64,000 nt of DNA from Mucilaginibacter endophyticus (GTDB taxonomy: Bacteria > Bacteroidota > Bacteroidia > Sphingobacteriales > Sphingobacteriaceae), in NCBI RefSeq assembly GCF_003351025.1, contig NZ_QPCG01000001.1, positions 751,949 to 815,948 of the forward strand, written 5' to 3'. This document shows positions 44,911 through 61,883 of the stretch, piece after piece (the first letter of the stretch is position 1; the number at the start of each line of letters is the position of its first letter). The translations under genes and the position numbers were made by a program. The notes below the pieces were generated by a model that ran no database searches, was not told where the DNA came from, and saw only the letters and a list, made by a program, of their open reading frames with translations.

Positions 44911-46077
44911 TTAATTTGGCTTGTCTGCACCTCCATTGGCGTTATCTCCAGTAGGTTTGTCTGTGGGGGGAGGAGGAGGTTCGTTGCCAACGGTGGTGGA
45001 GTCGTGTTGTTCTGTCGGTTGATCTTTGGTAGGTTCGGTGGCTTTTAAACCTGCATAAGTACCGGCGCTTATCCCCATCATCAATAGAATGTTGTTGTCA
45101 AAATCAGCCAGCAGGTTTGATGATATTGTTCTTTGGATAAAGATCAACCCAAACAAAACATTGAACATCACATTTTGGAGGCGTTGAATGTTGATGCTGC
45201 TCCTATCGGACAGGATATCGTGAAAAAAGCCTTCGCTGTGTGCTTTTGGGTCAATATCTGTTTTGGGTTTCTGATCGTTTTCGATAACCTTGCCCGCGGC
45301 CATAGTTGCAGCACTGATACCCAGGATAGCCAGTAATGAACCCGGAATATCGGGCAGCGCCCCGGTTTCGTTACAGATGTACAGATAAGCGCCGGAAAAG
45401 ATCACCGTCCAGTACAATAATTGCGTACGGCTGAGGCTGTAGTAAATATTGGCATCGTCTTTTAAAATATTATTCTTCAGGCCCATCGCCAGGAAGCCGG
45501 CCATAACAACAGCCATTATCCATACCCAAACCCGGTTTATTTTTTGTTTAACCTCAAGCTGGGTTTTGATCAGGCCTTTGGTAATGTAGCCATGCGAATC
45601 GCCGACCGAAAAATAGACGGGGATACGGGCTTTGTCGATAGATTTGCTGGCTAAAAACTGAACGGCAAGGTTTTGTACAGATTCATCGATCTTAAAGTAA
45701 ATGATCTTTTCATAGTCGTTACTGCTCCAGAATGCAGTTTCTCCCACCTTAATGTCATCTACATAAAGCGTTTTAAATGAATCGATAGGCAATTTGGTTT
45801 TTATCCTGATAGCAATGATCTCGTTAAGCCTGGCCGAATCTTTTCGCCCGCTTAAATTAGTAATGCTTAATATCGAATCGGGGAGGGTGGCAGTTTTAAC
45901 GGAATCTGCTTTAATCGGGGCTGTTTTTGTACTGTCGCCTGCTCCTGTTTGGGCGGCGGCGCAAATGGGAATCATCAATATCAACGCGCTTGCTGGTAGC
46001 TTAATTAGCCGTTTTTTTAACGACAGAGGAATTAGCGACAGCGACGCCATTAAGGCAAGAACTAATAATAAGGCCAT
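44911..46077 (-). CDS. unrecognised membrane protein
   Basis: 388 residues. N-terminal hydrophobic segments (signal/anchor up to ~residue 43, ending ICAAAQ), a periplasmic beta-type domain (~75-175), then about five membrane helices in two groups (~185-205, 218-265 with SRTQLLYWTVIFSGAYLYI, 308-345). The tail is hydrophilic and Pro-rich (NEPPPPPTDKPTGDNANGG). No family assigned. A hinge of cytoplasmic charged residues sits between the helix groups. Convergent with the alpha/beta hydrolase. Confidence 0.7.
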   Translation of the reverse strand: MALLLVLALMASLSLIPLSLKKRLIKLPASALILMIPICAAAQTGAGDSTKTAPIKADSVKTATLPDSILSITNLSGRKDSARLNEIIAIRIKTKLPIDSFKTLYVDDIKVGETAFWSSNDYEKIIYFKIDESVQNLAVQFLASKSIDKARIPVYFSVGDSHGYITKGLIKTQLEVKQKINRVWVWIMAVVMAGFLAMGLKNNILKDDANIYYSLSRTQLLYWTVIFSGAYLYICNETGALPDIPGSLLAILGISAATMAAGKVIENDQKPKTDIDPKAHSEGFFHDILSDRSSINIQRLQNVMFNVLFGLIFIQRTISSNLLADFDNNILLMMGISAGTYAGLKATEPTKDQPTEQHDSTTVGNEPPPPPTDKPTGDNANGGADKPN

Positions 46078-46383: not shown

Positions 46384-48882
46384 ATGAGATTTAAATTTAC
46401 CTTCACCGCCATTGTTGCTGCCTGCTGTTCGTTTCCCTTTTTTTTGAATGCCCAGGTTAAACCTGCAGCTAATTTAATGAAGCTTAACGCGCAGGAGTAT
46501 CTTGAATATAAGGGTGTAAACGTAATGCTTGCCCATGATTTTTATCCGGAAGGGCATCAGGGTGGCGTAGGCATTATTCAAAACGGACAGCGCGTAGCCA
46601 CCAATGGGGATATCAGGCTTGAACCTACGCCGGGGCAGTGGTCACCTATACCTAAGGTAGGCAAGCGGGTGGTGAACAAAAATACCGGCGAGGTAAGCGT
46701 ACGCATGGAATTCCCTAACCCGGACATGAACCGTCATGGCTTTAATCCTATTATTTACCCCGATCTGAATTTTGCTTATAACATCAGGGTAATTCCTGTC
46801 GGGAGGGCCTTTAAAATTATAGTGGATTTAGATAAATCCCTGCCAGATAACTGGATTGGTAAGGTTGGTTTTAACCTTGAGTTGTTCCCCGGTATCCTGT
46901 TTGGAAAATCGTACTATATGGATAAGCAATTCGGCATTTTCCCTCAGCAGGCCAACGGGCAAACCTATACTGACGCGGAAGGAGAGACCCAGGTAATGCC
47001 GATGGCAGAGGGTAAAAAGCTTACCATAGTACCAGAAACTGATCTGCAGCGCATGACTATCCAAAACCTTTTGGGCGGTAACCTGCAACTGCTTGATGGT
47101 AGGGCTAAGCACAATAATGGCTGGTTTGTAGTAAGATCATTAGTAGCTAAAGGGGCATCAAAAAATGCTATAGAGTGGCTGGTTACCCCAAATGCTGTGG
47201 ATGGCTGGCAATCGGAGCCGGTGATACAAGTATCGCAGGTAGGGTATCACCCTGCACAACAAAAAATAGCGGTTATTGAATTGGATAAAAATGATAAAAA
47301 GGTACAGCCCGTATCATTATTAAGAGTAGCTGAAAACGGAGGATTGATCCCGGCTTTAAAAGCTATCCCAACTAACTGGGGCGACTTTTTAAGATATCAT
47401 TACCTGCAATTTGATTTTACAAAAATCACTAAACCGGGCATGTACGTGGTTAAATATGGCAACTATCAAACGGAGCCCTTCCAGATCAGTACCGATGTAT
47501 TTAAAAATGATGTTTGGCAACCAACACTTTCATACTTTTTGCCAATACAGATGTGCCATATGCGTGTTAACGAAAAATACCGTGTATGGCATGGCCTATG
47601 CCATATGGACGATGCCAGGATGGCACCAATTGATTCCAATCATTTTGATGGTTATATCCAGGGACATAGCACACTCAATAAATATAAACCGGGCGATAAT
47701 GTACCTTTTCTTGACAGAGGAGCCTGGCACGATGCCGGTGATTTTGATTTAAGAGTTGAATCGCAGGCCGAAACCGTGCACGGGCTTACATTAGCTTACG
47801 AGGCTTTTGATGTAAAGTATGATAACACAACCATCGACCAAAAGAACCATATTGTAGAGATTCATCAACCCGATGGCAAACCGGATATGCTGCAACAGAT
47901 TGAGCATGGTTTACTGGCCATAACAGGTGGCTACCAGGCTATGGGGCGCTTTTATCGCGGTGTTATTGAGCCAACCATAAGGCAGTACACCATTTTAGGC
48001 GATGCCGCTAATATTACCGATAACAAACCTTTTGTAACCAACGCCAACAATACCGATCCCGTATTGAAAACCTCTGCCGCGGCCGATGACAGGTGGGTAT
48101 TTACAGAAGATAATCCCGGTCGCTCGTTGGAAACTGCTGCCGCGCTGGCCGCTGCAAGTCGCGTAATGAAGGGTTATAACGATACGCTGGCCACCCAATG
48201 CCTGCAAATAGCACAGGAGGTTTGGAAAAACACAACAGATCAAACCTTACGCCATCGTATTGCTTTGGCTGTTGAGTTATACATCACCACAAAAGATAAA
48301 ACTTATGCCGATTATTTGGTTGGCAATACCGATGCAATAGCCGCTAACATTGACAATACCGGCTGGCTGGTTGGTCGTACCATGGGGTTAATTAGTGATG
48401 CAAACTATCATAGCAAAATAACCGAAGCGGTTAAAAAGCTTTACGCAAATATTCAGCAGCAGGGGGCTAAAACACCTTATGGCGTACCGTACGAGCCTAA
48501 TATCTGGGGTGCAGGCTGGGGGATCCAGAATTTTGGGTATAAGCAATACTTTTTATACAGCGGTTTTCCGTCGGTTTTCAGCGATACCTATATGCTGCAC
48601 GCTATTGATTTTGTGCTGGGCTGCCATCCGGGTGCTAACACAGCGTCATTTGTATCAGGAGTAGGTGCAAGATCAATGACTACGGCTTACGGCTTTAACC
48701 GGGCAGATCGCTCTTACATTCCCGGAGGTATTACTTCGGGCACGGCGCTTATTCGTCCCGATTTTCCTGAATTGCTCAACTGGCCTTATTTATGGCAACA
48801 AGGCGAATATGTTTTAGGTGGAGGCACCACCGATTACCTGTTCCTGGTTTTAGCAGCCGATCACGTTTTAAATAAAAAGTAA
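46384..48882 (+). CDS. glycoside hydrolase family 9 protein, secreted
   Basis: 832 residues. Signal peptide (ends near FFLNAQ). An N-terminal beta domain of ~270 residues is specific to this subgroup. Then comes the cellulase-N Ig-like domain (~280-375, VSQVGYHPAQQKIAVIEL) and the (alpha/alpha)6 GH9 domain (~385-830). Catalytic base motif DAGD at 450-453 and acid Glu808 in QQGEYVLGGGTTDY are both present. GH9 enzymes cut beta-1,4-glucans, xyloglucan or chitosan oligomers; the substrate cannot be fixed here. Followed after 3 nt by the epimerase gene. Confidence 0.9.
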   Translation: MRFKFTFTAIVAACCSFPFFLNAQVKPAANLMKLNAQEYLEYKGVNVMLAHDFYPEGHQGGVGIIQNGQRVATNGDIRLEPTPGQWSPIPKVGKRVVNKNTGEVSVRMEFPNPDMNRHGFNPIIYPDLNFAYNIRVIPVGRAFKIIVDLDKSLPDNWIGKVGFNLELFPGILFGKSYYMDKQFGIFPQQANGQTYTDAEGETQVMPMAEGKKLTIVPETDLQRMTIQNLLGGNLQLLDGRAKHNNGWFVVRSLVAKGASKNAIEWLVTPNAVDGWQSEPVIQVSQVGYHPAQQKIAVIELDKNDKKVQPVSLLRVAENGGLIPALKAIPTNWGDFLRYHYLQFDFTKITKPGMYVVKYGNYQTEPFQISTDVFKNDVWQPTLSYFLPIQMCHMRVNEKYRVWHGLCHMDDARMAPIDSNHFDGYIQGHSTLNKYKPGDNVPFLDRGAWHDAGDFDLRVESQAETVHGLTLAYEAFDVKYDNTTIDQKNHIVEIHQPDGKPDMLQQIEHGLLAITGGYQAMGRFYRGVIEPTIRQYTILGDAANITDNKPFVTNANNTDPVLKTSAAADDRWVFTEDNPGRSLETAAALAAASRVMKGYNDTLATQCLQIAQEVWKNTTDQTLRHRIALAVELYITTKDKTYADYLVGNTDAIAANIDNTGWLVGRTMGLISDANYHSKITEAVKKLYANIQQQGAKTPYGVPYEPNIWGAGWGIQNFGYKQYFLYSGFPSVFSDTYMLHAIDFVLGCHPGANTASFVSGVGARSMTTAYGFNRADRSYIPGGITSGTALIRPDFPELLNWPYLWQQGEYVLGGGTTDYLFLVLAADHVLNKK

Positions 48883-48885
48883 GTT

Positions 48886-50454
48886 ATGAAATTGAAGATC
48901 AGTTTGCTTGCGGCTTTGGTGGGCACTGCAACTATAGCATTTGCGCAAAATAACCTGGGCGAAAAGAAGAAAATAGCCCATGAAATGCAAAAATCCATGG
49001 TTGATGAGTTGCTTAAGCCCTGGTATCCGGCTGCGATTGATACGGCGGATGGTGGGTTTTTGAGCGCCTTTACCTATGATTTTAAGCCAACCGGAAACCA
49101 GGATAAAATGATTGTGACCCAGGCACGCCATGTTTGGAGTAACAGCAAAGCCGCCGAGCTTTTCCCCGGTAAAAAGTATTACATGGCAGGAGCAAGCCAT
49201 GGCTACGAGTTTTTGCGGGATAAACTTTGGGATAAGGAGTACGGTGGCTTTTACATTTTTACCGATAAACAGGGGAACCCTAAGCAAGGAGGTTTCGCTC
49301 CAAAAGAGGCTTATGGTAATTCGTTTGCTATTTACGCGCTTGCGGCTTATTACCAGGCCTCTGGCGATACCAGTGCCTTAAACTTGGCTAAACAATGTTT
49401 TTGGTGGCTGGAAAAGCACGCGCACGATCCCGTTTATAAAGGGTATTATCAGCATATGGAACGGGATGGGACACCTATTGTAAGGGACGTCATCATAAAA
49501 TCAACTGCCGAAACAGGGTATAAAGATCAAAACTCATCTATCCACCTGCTGGAATCTTTTACAGAACTGTATGGCGTATGGCCTGATGCATTACTGAAAA
49601 CCCGTTTGCAAGAAATGCTGCTGCTGGTACGTGATAAGATCACTAACAATAAGGGTAACCTCATCCTGTTTTTTCAACCGGATTGGACCCCGGTATCTTT
49701 TCGTGATTCGGGTATGGCAGTTTATAAACAGCACCATAGCCTCGACCATATCTCGTACGGGCACAACGTAGAGACGGCTTACCTCATGCTCGAAGCATCT
49801 CATGCTCTGGGTTTGGAGGATGATGCCAAAACATTAGCGGTTGGTAAAAAAATGGTTGATGATGCCCTGGATCACGGCTGGGATAATAAAGTGGGCGGCT
49901 TTTATGATGAGGGCTATTATTTTAAAGATACCCCCGGCGTTACCATTACCGAAGATACCAAAAACTGGTGGGCCCAGGCCGAAGGTTTAAACACCCTGCT
50001 TATTATGGCCGCTAAGTATCCTGCCGATAAGCACCAATACTTTGATCAATTTAAAAACCTTTGGCAATATACCCAAACTTATCTGATAGATCATGAGCAC
50101 GGCGACTGGTACCAGGGTGGCATTGACAAGCAGCCTCAATATAAAACAGCCCTTAAAGGCCAAATCTGGAAAGGGACTTACCATACCTTCCGCGCCCTAA
50201 TGAACTGTGTGATGCAGCTCAACCCAGATAAAATACCACCGACTGCCCCAAAGCAGGTTAAAGTAATAAAAGGCGTTTTGAAGTGGCAGCCATCTACGGA
50301 TAATAAACGGGTACTGGGTTACAATATTTACAGCAATGGTAAACGGATAGGGTTTACACCGTTGAATTATTTTGCGACAGGTAGAAACAGTAAGTTGAGT
50401 GTAAGAGCAGTGGATTTGGCAGGGAATCAATCGGTTCAGGTTAAAGCTTTATGA
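48886..50454 (+). CDS. AGE-family epimerase, cellobiose 2-epimerase-like, exported
   Basis: 522 residues. Signal peptide (LLAALVGTATIAFAQN). The (alpha/alpha)6 barrel ~25-440 carries cellobiose-2-epimerase signatures: NSSIHLLESFTELY, DHISYGHNVETAYLMLEA, NWWAQAEGL and WKGTYHTFRAL with His433. A C-terminal ~75-residue fibronectin-III-like domain (PPTAPKQVKV ... YNIYSNGKRIGF) is fused. Known cellobiose 2-epimerases are cytoplasmic and convert Glc to Man at the reducing end of beta-1,4 disaccharides; the export signal is unusual. Co-transcribed with GH9. Confidence 0.85.
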   Translation: MKLKISLLAALVGTATIAFAQNNLGEKKKIAHEMQKSMVDELLKPWYPAAIDTADGGFLSAFTYDFKPTGNQDKMIVTQARHVWSNSKAAELFPGKKYYMAGASHGYEFLRDKLWDKEYGGFYIFTDKQGNPKQGGFAPKEAYGNSFAIYALAAYYQASGDTSALNLAKQCFWWLEKHAHDPVYKGYYQHMERDGTPIVRDVIIKSTAETGYKDQNSSIHLLESFTELYGVWPDALLKTRLQEMLLLVRDKITNNKGNLILFFQPDWTPVSFRDSGMAVYKQHHSLDHISYGHNVETAYLMLEASHALGLEDDAKTLAVGKKMVDDALDHGWDNKVGGFYDEGYYFKDTPGVTITEDTKNWWAQAEGLNTLLIMAAKYPADKHQYFDQFKNLWQYTQTYLIDHEHGDWYQGGIDKQPQYKTALKGQIWKGTYHTFRALMNCVMQLNPDKIPPTAPKQVKVIKGVLKWQPSTDNKRVLGYNIYSNGKRIGFTPLNYFATGRNSKLSVRAVDLAGNQSVQVKAL

Positions 50455-60562: not shown

Positions 60563-60595
60563 AAAAAGGCTGTCATGTTACATGGCAGCCTTTTT
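60563..60595 (+). terminator. rho-independent terminator
   Basis: AAAAAGGCTG / CAGCCTTTTT arms with inner CATG/CATG pairing, followed by ATCTT. Closes the second SusCD locus. Confidence 0.85.
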
Positions 60596-60647
60596 ATCTT
60601 TATATGGAGGGGTATTGCATTTCCTCGTCAGGTTTATAAGTAATATT

Positions 60648-61883
60648 ATGCTTAAGCAGCGCACATTCTTTTTGGCTTTGTTGTTACTGATACCTTTGAG
60701 TTTCTTACTGGTGCAGTGCTTTAGCGATAAGCCGCAGGATCCAAGGGCAGAGATCTTTGCCGGATCGGCAAGTTGTGAGAAATGCCATAAGGATGTTTAT
60801 AATAGTTACCTGCATACAGCGCACTATCTTTCTTCACGGCCAACATCTGCTGAAATTGTACACGGGAGTTTCGATTCGAATAGAAACACGTTGCAATATG
60901 CCGATGGTACTGTTGTTAAAATGGAAAAGCGTAACGGCGAGCTTTACCAGGTAAGCTATACCAACAATAAAGAAACTGTTGCCCATAAAATGGATATTAC
61001 TTTTGGGGTAAACAAGGCGCAAACCTATATGTACTGGCAGGATAAGCAGTTGTTTGAATTGCCGGTATCCTATTTTAATACGGTACATGGTTGGGCAAAC
61101 AGCCCTGGTTATGATGGTACTAAGCCAGATTTTAACCGCCCAATTTTGCAAAGATGTTTTGAGTGCCACGCATCATTCATCAGGCAGGCATCGCAACAAA
61201 ATATAGATCTGCAAAACCGCAAGATCGAGTTTGAGCCGGCATCTATCATTTATGGTATCGACTGCGAACGTTGCCATGGCCCGGCAGCTAACCACGTGAA
61301 TTATCATGAGGCGTATCCTGAAGAAAAGACCGCTAAATATATCACCCGGTTTGCTTCGCTTACCCGCGCTCAAAAAATGGATGCCTGCGGGGTGTGCCAC
61401 TCAAGCAGCAAACAGGCGTTCCAGCTATCAACCTTTAAATTTAAAATGGGAGATACTCTGGCCCGTTTCAAGGAGCCCGATTATTTAAATATACAAACCA
61501 ACGCGGCTTCGCTTGATGTGCATGGTAACCAGAATGGGTTACTAACGGCCAGCAAGTGTTATTTAATGAGCAATATGGATTGCAGTACCTGTCATAACAC
61601 GCACGTAAATAATGGCGGTAATCTTGCCCTGTACTCAAAAAAATGCATGAGCTGCCACACCGAAGCCAACCATAACCTGTGCAAGGTTGCACCTAAGTTA
61701 AGTGCCATGATGCAAAATAATTGTATTGATTGCCACATGCCGCTTAAACCATCAAATACAATCGCGGTTAATGATACTTCAGGTAAAAGTTCATCACCTT
61801 ACCTGGTGCGTACCCATCGCATCGCTATTTATCCAAACGAGACCAAGAAGATCCTTGCGTTTCTGAATACAGCCGGTAAATAG
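60648..61883 (+). CDS. multiheme cytochrome c (seven CxxCH)
   Basis: 411 residues from ATG 60648 (MLKQRTFFLALLLLIPLSFL); a start at 60582 would lie inside the terminator. Signal or membrane anchor with a possible lipid-linked Cys in LLVQCFSDK. Seven heme-binding motifs are visible: CEKCH, CFECH, CERCH, CGVCH, CSTCH, CMSCH and CIDCH. The layout (ASCEKCHKDVYNSYLHTAHY at the start) recalls cytochrome c554-like families. Likely a periplasmic or envelope electron carrier. No oxidoreductase partner is adjacent. Confidence 0.9.
   Translation: MLKQRTFFLALLLLIPLSFLLVQCFSDKPQDPRAEIFAGSASCEKCHKDVYNSYLHTAHYLSSRPTSAEIVHGSFDSNRNTLQYADGTVVKMEKRNGELYQVSYTNNKETVAHKMDITFGVNKAQTYMYWQDKQLFELPVSYFNTVHGWANSPGYDGTKPDFNRPILQRCFECHASFIRQASQQNIDLQNRKIEFEPASIIYGIDCERCHGPAANHVNYHEAYPEEKTAKYITRFASLTRAQKMDACGVCHSSSKQAFQLSTFKFKMGDTLARFKEPDYLNIQTNAASLDVHGNQNGLLTASKCYLMSNMDCSTCHNTHVNNGGNLALYSKKCMSCHTEANHNLCKVAPKLSAMMQNNCIDCHMPLKPSNTIAVNDTSGKSSSPYLVRTHRIAIYPNETKKILAFLNTAGK

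Follow-up and report, generated by a model that had tools for sequence, protein, structure and literature searches.

Our analyses of a 64,000-nucleotide (nt) stretch of the Mucilaginibacter endophyticus genome (hereafter the window, meaning the whole stretch at its full length) identify, at positions 46384-50454, a gene for a glycoside hydrolase of family GH9 followed directly by one for an epimerase-like enzyme of the AGE family. The AGE protein carries an export signal and an intact AGE active site, its gene is linked to GH9 across related genomes, and a second exported AGE lineage occurs with the same partners. We propose that the window AGE may be a 2-epimerase of the periplasm that edits the sugar at the reducing end of beta-1,4-gluco/manno-oligosaccharides on behalf of the hydrolases paired with it, a reading to which we give about an even chance. 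Mucilaginibacter is a soil bacterium, and GH9 enzymes cut plant cell walls. The two genes are the following:

46384..48882, + strand: complete open reading frame (ORF), predicted exported GH9-family enzyme of 832 amino acids (aa), Pfam Glyco_hydro_9 and CelD_N
48886..50454, + strand: complete ORF, predicted exported AGE-family epimerase-like enzyme of 522 aa, Pfam PF07221 (E 2.2e-37)

The ORF coordinates bear out the original prediction that the AGE start lies 3 nt after the GH9 stop, and the two genes probably form one operon. Both proteins share 93-97% identity with those of M. kameinonensis, the host being a nearby Mucilaginibacter. Against three near relatives, the ratio of nonsynonymous to synonymous substitution rates (dN/dS) is 0.025-0.063 for the epimerase domain and 0.03-0.04 for GH9, and 0.09-0.21 for the Fn3-like tail of the AGE protein. 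Purifying selection on the epimerase domain is strong, and the pair is more than a chance arrangement; the enzyme has therefore been kept functional, with the tail freer to change.

Export was assessed from 10-residue hydropathy peaks, compared with those of AGE proteins without a leader, and cleavage sites were read from the sequence. The leaders of the two proteins are:

48886..48945, + strand: predicted AGE signal sequence, residues 1-20, cleavage expected between AFA and Q, hydropathy peak 2.28
within 46384..48882, + strand: predicted GH9 leader, residues 1-23, ending ...LNA before Q

The hydrophobic AGE leader, ending ...IAFA before QNN, is kept in all orthologues examined (peaks 2.1-3.2, against 1.6 or less in leaderless AGE proteins) and occurs in all 15 window-clade proteins that the tree includes, so that the clear signal peptide first noticed in this protein is confirmed both by hydropathy contrast and by conservation. 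The expectation that AGE proteins are normally cytosolic holds as well: a set of 119 Bacteroidia genomes yielded 16 PF07221 proteins, of which 14 lack a hydrophobic leader (peaks of 1.6 or less), and the only two bearing one, the window AGE and G145:C1:1023415 (peak 3.38), both directly follow a GH9 gene of the same subfamily. Both window leaders are of the plain signal peptidase I type. Neither window protein has a conserved lipobox (cysteines in the GH9 leader are not kept in orthologues), and no type IX sorting domain or tail was recognised in them; a lipobox does occur in two Chitinophagaceae-like clade members (L057, L058). Because of these features both enzymes probably reside in the periplasm, acting between SusC-type import and the inner membrane. 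The proposed extracytoplasmic step stands as far as export signal, intact active site and GH9 linkage are concerned, and would probably take place in the periplasm rather than outside the cell.

Membership of the AGE superfamily is established by both profile and fold. PF07221 (GlcNAc_2-epim) matches residues 57-437 over profile positions 1-347 of 347 (129.6 bits against a cut-off of 23.4), and a structural model built from a 17-sequence alignment (predicted local distance difference test, pLDDT, 79; predicted template modelling score 0.86) gave an (alpha/alpha)6 barrel predicted to superpose on the cellobiose 2-epimerase RmCE (3wkf) with Z 45.8 and a root-mean-square deviation of 2.5 A over 396 residues, in agreement with the expected likeness to cellobiose epimerases. 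Mapped on RmCE, the parts of the protein are:

48949..50232, + strand: (alpha/alpha)6 AGE domain, residues 22-449
49126-49128, 49543-49545, 49762-49764 and 50182-50184, + strand: catalytic residues R81, H220, H293 and H433, corresponding to RmCE R66, H200, H259 and H390
50233..50451, + strand: Fn3-like C-terminal domain, residues 450-522, from a match to 1k85 and strands in the model

The catalytic and sugar-stacking residues of RmCE are all present: R66, Y124, N196, H200, H259, E262, W322, W385 and H390 correspond to R81, Y143, N216, H220, H293, E296, W362, W428 and H433, which are invariant in 17 orthologues and identical throughout the exported clade. We take their roles to be those described for cellobiose 2-epimerases. 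Loss of the catalytic histidines on careful alignment had been named as an observation that would overturn the epimerase assignment; instead H220, H293 and H433 fall one-to-one on those of RmCE. As for the tail, residues 445-522 resemble the chitinase A1 Fn3 domain (1k85, E 0.0025) and part of the tail in DUF3472 proteins (8pn5, E 0.0005), and the domain is all-strand in the model (pLDDT about 85-90); the Pfam fn3 profile gave no match there. It is dispensable, because several orthologues lack it (L021, L035, L056, L057).

Descent tells a different story from fold and active site. In a tree with mannose-isomerase-like AGE proteins as outgroup, the window clade falls outside the 100/96 branch that unites RmCE, RaCE, CsCE, BtCE and StCE with cytosolic Bacteroidota enzymes, so that the label cellobiose-2-epimerase-like suits the fold and the active site and not the ancestry, the protein lying outside the clade of the five characterised enzymes (EC 5.1.3.11). 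The clade is further set apart by one feature:

49699..49743 (ends approximate), + strand: 15-residue insert between W267 and the catalytic H293, specific to the exported window clade and defined by W-to-H spacing

This spacing is 26 in 15/15 window-clade members, as against 11-12 in nearly all proteins of the cellobiose-epimerase clade. Activity on cellobiose, lactose or mannobiose is not to be assumed, because of both the position outside the clade and the insert. Compared with the cellobiose 2-epimerases RmCE, RaCE, CsCE and StCE and with mannobiose 2-epimerases such as S. copri EpiA, the window AGE shares the predicted fold (Z 45-46), the His triad, the Arg, the Glu and the stacking Trp residues, and differs in being exported, in an identity of only 23-28%, in the insert, in the residue at the position of RmCE D188 and in its optional tail. 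The NCBIfam EpiA equivalog was dropped as a membership test, its cut-off of 800 bits being non-discriminating: the window AGE scores 174 bits, and even this genome's cytosolic enzyme of the canonical type reaches no more than 386.

Among 120 related genomes the epimerase occurs in 19, and 18 of these (the exception being G007) hold the close GH9 group, which is never found without the epimerase (0 of 120). The pair is adjacent in each case examined, in three gene arrangements: GH9 then AGE (the window, L023-L033), AGE then GH9 (L013, L021, L022, L034, L065) and divergent (L009, L012, L014, L015, L020, L037, L064). Outside the genus the two genes are separate, except in a metagenome-assembled genome (L037). 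The remaining neighbours vary between species while the pair persists; the SusC/SusD, ECF and FecR genes of the window were accordingly discarded as substrate markers, being replaced outside the closest relatives. A survey of such neighbourhoods had been suggested from the outset, and its outcome, adjacency kept through rearrangement and a pairing that recurs with a phylogenetically separate exported AGE, supports a functional tie.

This separate lineage, sAGE2, comes from another Bacteroidia family (code f33), where its gene starts 1 nt past the stop of a GH9 of the same subfamily in G145 and 28 nt past it in G465. sAGE2 is nested inside the 100/96 branch with the characterised cellobiose 2-epimerases, has their W-to-H spacing of 11-12 and lacks the 15-residue insert. 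A single origin of AGE export was rejected when all exported AGE proteins were forced into one clade (p 0.010 in a first tree and p 0.0499, at the very edge, in a second), the constrained group having been named after the tree was seen. Two independent exports are favoured, though not proven, because sAGE2 lies inside and the window clade outside the cellobiose-epimerase branch, because of these constraint tests, and because the insert occurs only in the window clade.

Both lineages also share a GH30-like partner. This family has no Pfam name, and its N390-E391 and E486 are invariant, as expected of a clan A glycosidase. Its gene lies 29 nt after a window-type epimerase in two Mucilaginibacter (L024 and L025) and adjoins sAGE2 in L124, and in three genomes of another Bacteroidia family it forms the C-terminal part of an sAGE2 fusion protein of 1002-1012 aa (L126:8855-11893, L127:7622-10642, L128:9112-12120); no clear copy was found in the window genome. 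The fusion and the repeated adjacency point to a joint action of exported AGE enzymes and hydrolases. We give even odds to a broader reading, in which Bacteroidota have more than once evolved, as a genuine part of hemicellulose use, an epimerisation of reducing ends that takes place outside the cytoplasm; at least two AGE lineages would have been exported independently and become linked with one and the same GH9 subfamily and GH30-like hydrolase, joined to the latter in one polypeptide chain in three genomes. U634, found beside GH9 in the second family, was rejected as a shared partner since it was not found beside the window clade. Separately, a conserved exported protein of 619-634 aa starting ...GNYKSFKVSVYTRAYEVEKMKDLHWL, with no Pfam or NCBIfam match, lies beside GH9 in L059:10644-12548, L060:11319-13178 and L125:6049-7926.

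The 832 aa protein matches the Glyco_hydro_9 profile (E 6.6e-18, 65.7 bits against a cut-off of 27.7) and has the catalytic Asp and Glu residues of the family: D450/D453 and E808 do not vary among 13 relatives, whose identity falls as low as about 33%, E808 being assigned from motif and conservation rather than from alignment to a solved structure. Two further parts were delimited:

47212..47466, + strand: CelD_N Ig-like domain, residues 277-361, Pfam PF02927 (E 2.7e-8)
46456..47208, + strand: N-terminal part, about residues 25-275, strongly conserved in orthologues

The protein thus resembles GH9 endoglucanases (3x17, BoGH9A 6dht, CelD 1clc) in combining CelD_N with a GH9 catalytic domain, and differs from them in its weak similarity (best E about 1e-11) and in the additional N-terminal part, whose roughly 250 residues gave no Pfam match and, against PDB sequences, nothing below E 0.3. 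A structure prediction from 8 sequences (mean pLDDT 40) was not used. Two Mucilaginibacter genomes also have a more distant paralogue of GH9 that is accompanied by no epimerase, near GH43, arabinofuranosidase and esterase genes in L132 and near GH43 and GH10 genes in L133.

The substrate was originally proposed to be a beta-glucan. Neighbours in other species speak for glucomannan no less than for beta-glucan: a GH26 beta-mannanase gene lies next to the pair or one gene away in L020, L034, L064 and L065, and L064 further holds CE2, GH97 and a cytosolic AGE nearby. Our best guess, with moderate confidence, is that glucomannan-type oligosaccharides would be the substrate. It is generally accepted that disaccharides of beta-mannan and glucomannan are 2-epimerised in the cytosol and then phosphorolysed by GH130. 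The epimerase of the S. copri cluster, EpiA, predicted to be cytoplasmic, epimerises mannobiose, cellobiose and ManGlc (PMC12704710), and both cytoplasmic phosphorylases and secreted hydrolases are known in GH130 (PMC4599007), which serves here as an analogy only. A canonical cluster of this kind (SusC-SusD-AraC-SSF-GH130-AGE-x-GH26, its AGE cytosolic) is encoded in the same genome at C1:862-878 kb, about 70 kb from the pair:

L074 (G000:C1:862000-881900): SSF, GH130, AGE, a 586 aa protein of no known family, and GH26

The window pair resembles this SSF symporter-GH130-AGE-GH26 route in setting an epimerase beside beta-mannan enzymes, and differs in that the epimerase is exported and accompanied by hydrolases, instead of being cytosolic and accompanied by a phosphorylase. 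In the mechanism that we infer, GH9 would trim beta-1,4-gluco- or glucomanno-oligosaccharides after their import across the outer membrane, and the exported AGE would deprotonate and reprotonate C2 of the reducing-end sugar, with H293 and H433 as the acid/base pair assisted by H220, interconverting glucose and mannose at that end. In this way ends of mixed Glc/Man type might be accepted by GH9, by the GH30-like clan A enzyme in other genomes, or by an inner-membrane transporter. The pair would do in the periplasm, with hydrolases, what the cytosolic route does with an epimerase and a GH130 phosphorylase.

Several observations weigh against a periplasmic reducing-end epimerase. The window clade stands outside the cellobiose-epimerase clade and carries its insert at the active site, and RmCE D188, kept in all cytosolic proteins of that clade in our set, is replaced by A, G or S. 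No GH26 adjoins the pair in the window itself, and some GH9/sAGE2 loci carry GH13 in its place; a cytosolic epimerase-GH130-GH26 cluster is already present, which leaves the need for a second, extracytoplasmic step unexplained. Outside the genus, G359, G395 and G451 have the epimerase without GH9.

The main alternative, because of the branching towards the Runella enzyme and the long loop, is that the protein interconverts free glucose and mannose in the periplasm, as a 2-epimerase of the monosaccharides that GH9 and companion hydrolases set free, and so matches the sugar to the available inner-membrane transporter, like the glucose 2-epimerase of Runella slithyformis (PDB 8h1k-8h1n); we consider it clearly less probable than our main reading. 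The window clade branches between the Runella enzyme and the cellobiose epimerases, and the window AGE and the Runella enzyme share the AGE fold (Z 44 for the model against 8h1l), the His triad and, unlike cellobiose epimerases, a long loop ahead of the catalytic His. The Runella placement is, however, unsure, being on a long branch; the Runella loop is longer and unrelated in sequence, identity is 28-29%, and no leader is seen there, the alignment beginning at chain residue 2-10. Moreover, RmCE N196 is kept in the window AGE (N216) and is Asp in Runella, and sAGE2, with the same partners, belongs to the disaccharide-active clade. An exported AGE fold with some other activity, be it epimerisation of an amino sugar, of a modified sugar or of an oligosaccharide end particular to another polymer, or hydrolysis, would suit a deep, separate clade with its own insert and the varied neighbours of the pair (GH95, GH97 and GH30 in L034, L064 and L065), but is unlikely given the complete epimerase triad, the invariant sugar-stacking Trp residues and the far poorer match to (alpha/alpha)6 hydrolases (Z of 27 or less, against 45). 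That the protein is an ordinary paralogue of cytosolic type, its leader and GH9 adjacency both accidental, is very improbable: AGE proteins are common in mannan loci and gene orders shuffle, yet the leader is universal in the clade, the epimerase domain is constrained, and the adjacency survives rearrangement and repeats in a second lineage, so that the linkage data already contradict chance.

Two other genes of the window were recorded. A 388 aa protein with no family match (44911-46077, minus strand) lies between an alpha/beta hydrolase and GH9, in the same place in L023-L026. The protein at 60582-61883, directly after a SusC/SusD pair, has cytochrome c554/c7 and CXXCH-type matches, an odd neighbour in a glycan locus.

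No description of exported or periplasmic cellobiose epimerases, of Mucilaginibacter epimerases or of AGE-GH9 pairs was found in a literature search with little coverage of subscription journals, and earlier reports are possible. The AGE fold and chemistry are already known; the papers searched do not describe an exported clade of the family that has an insert of its own and is linked to GH9 and a GH30-like partner. The same pairing seems to have originated in a second family of bacteria too, which points to a so far unstudied editing of sugars outside the cytoplasm. If our preferred reading is true, 2-epimerisation has been moved out of the cytoplasm, altering the oligosaccharides offered to hydrolases and transporters, and these bacteria would hold a naturally exported AGE family of possible use in the production of rare disaccharides.

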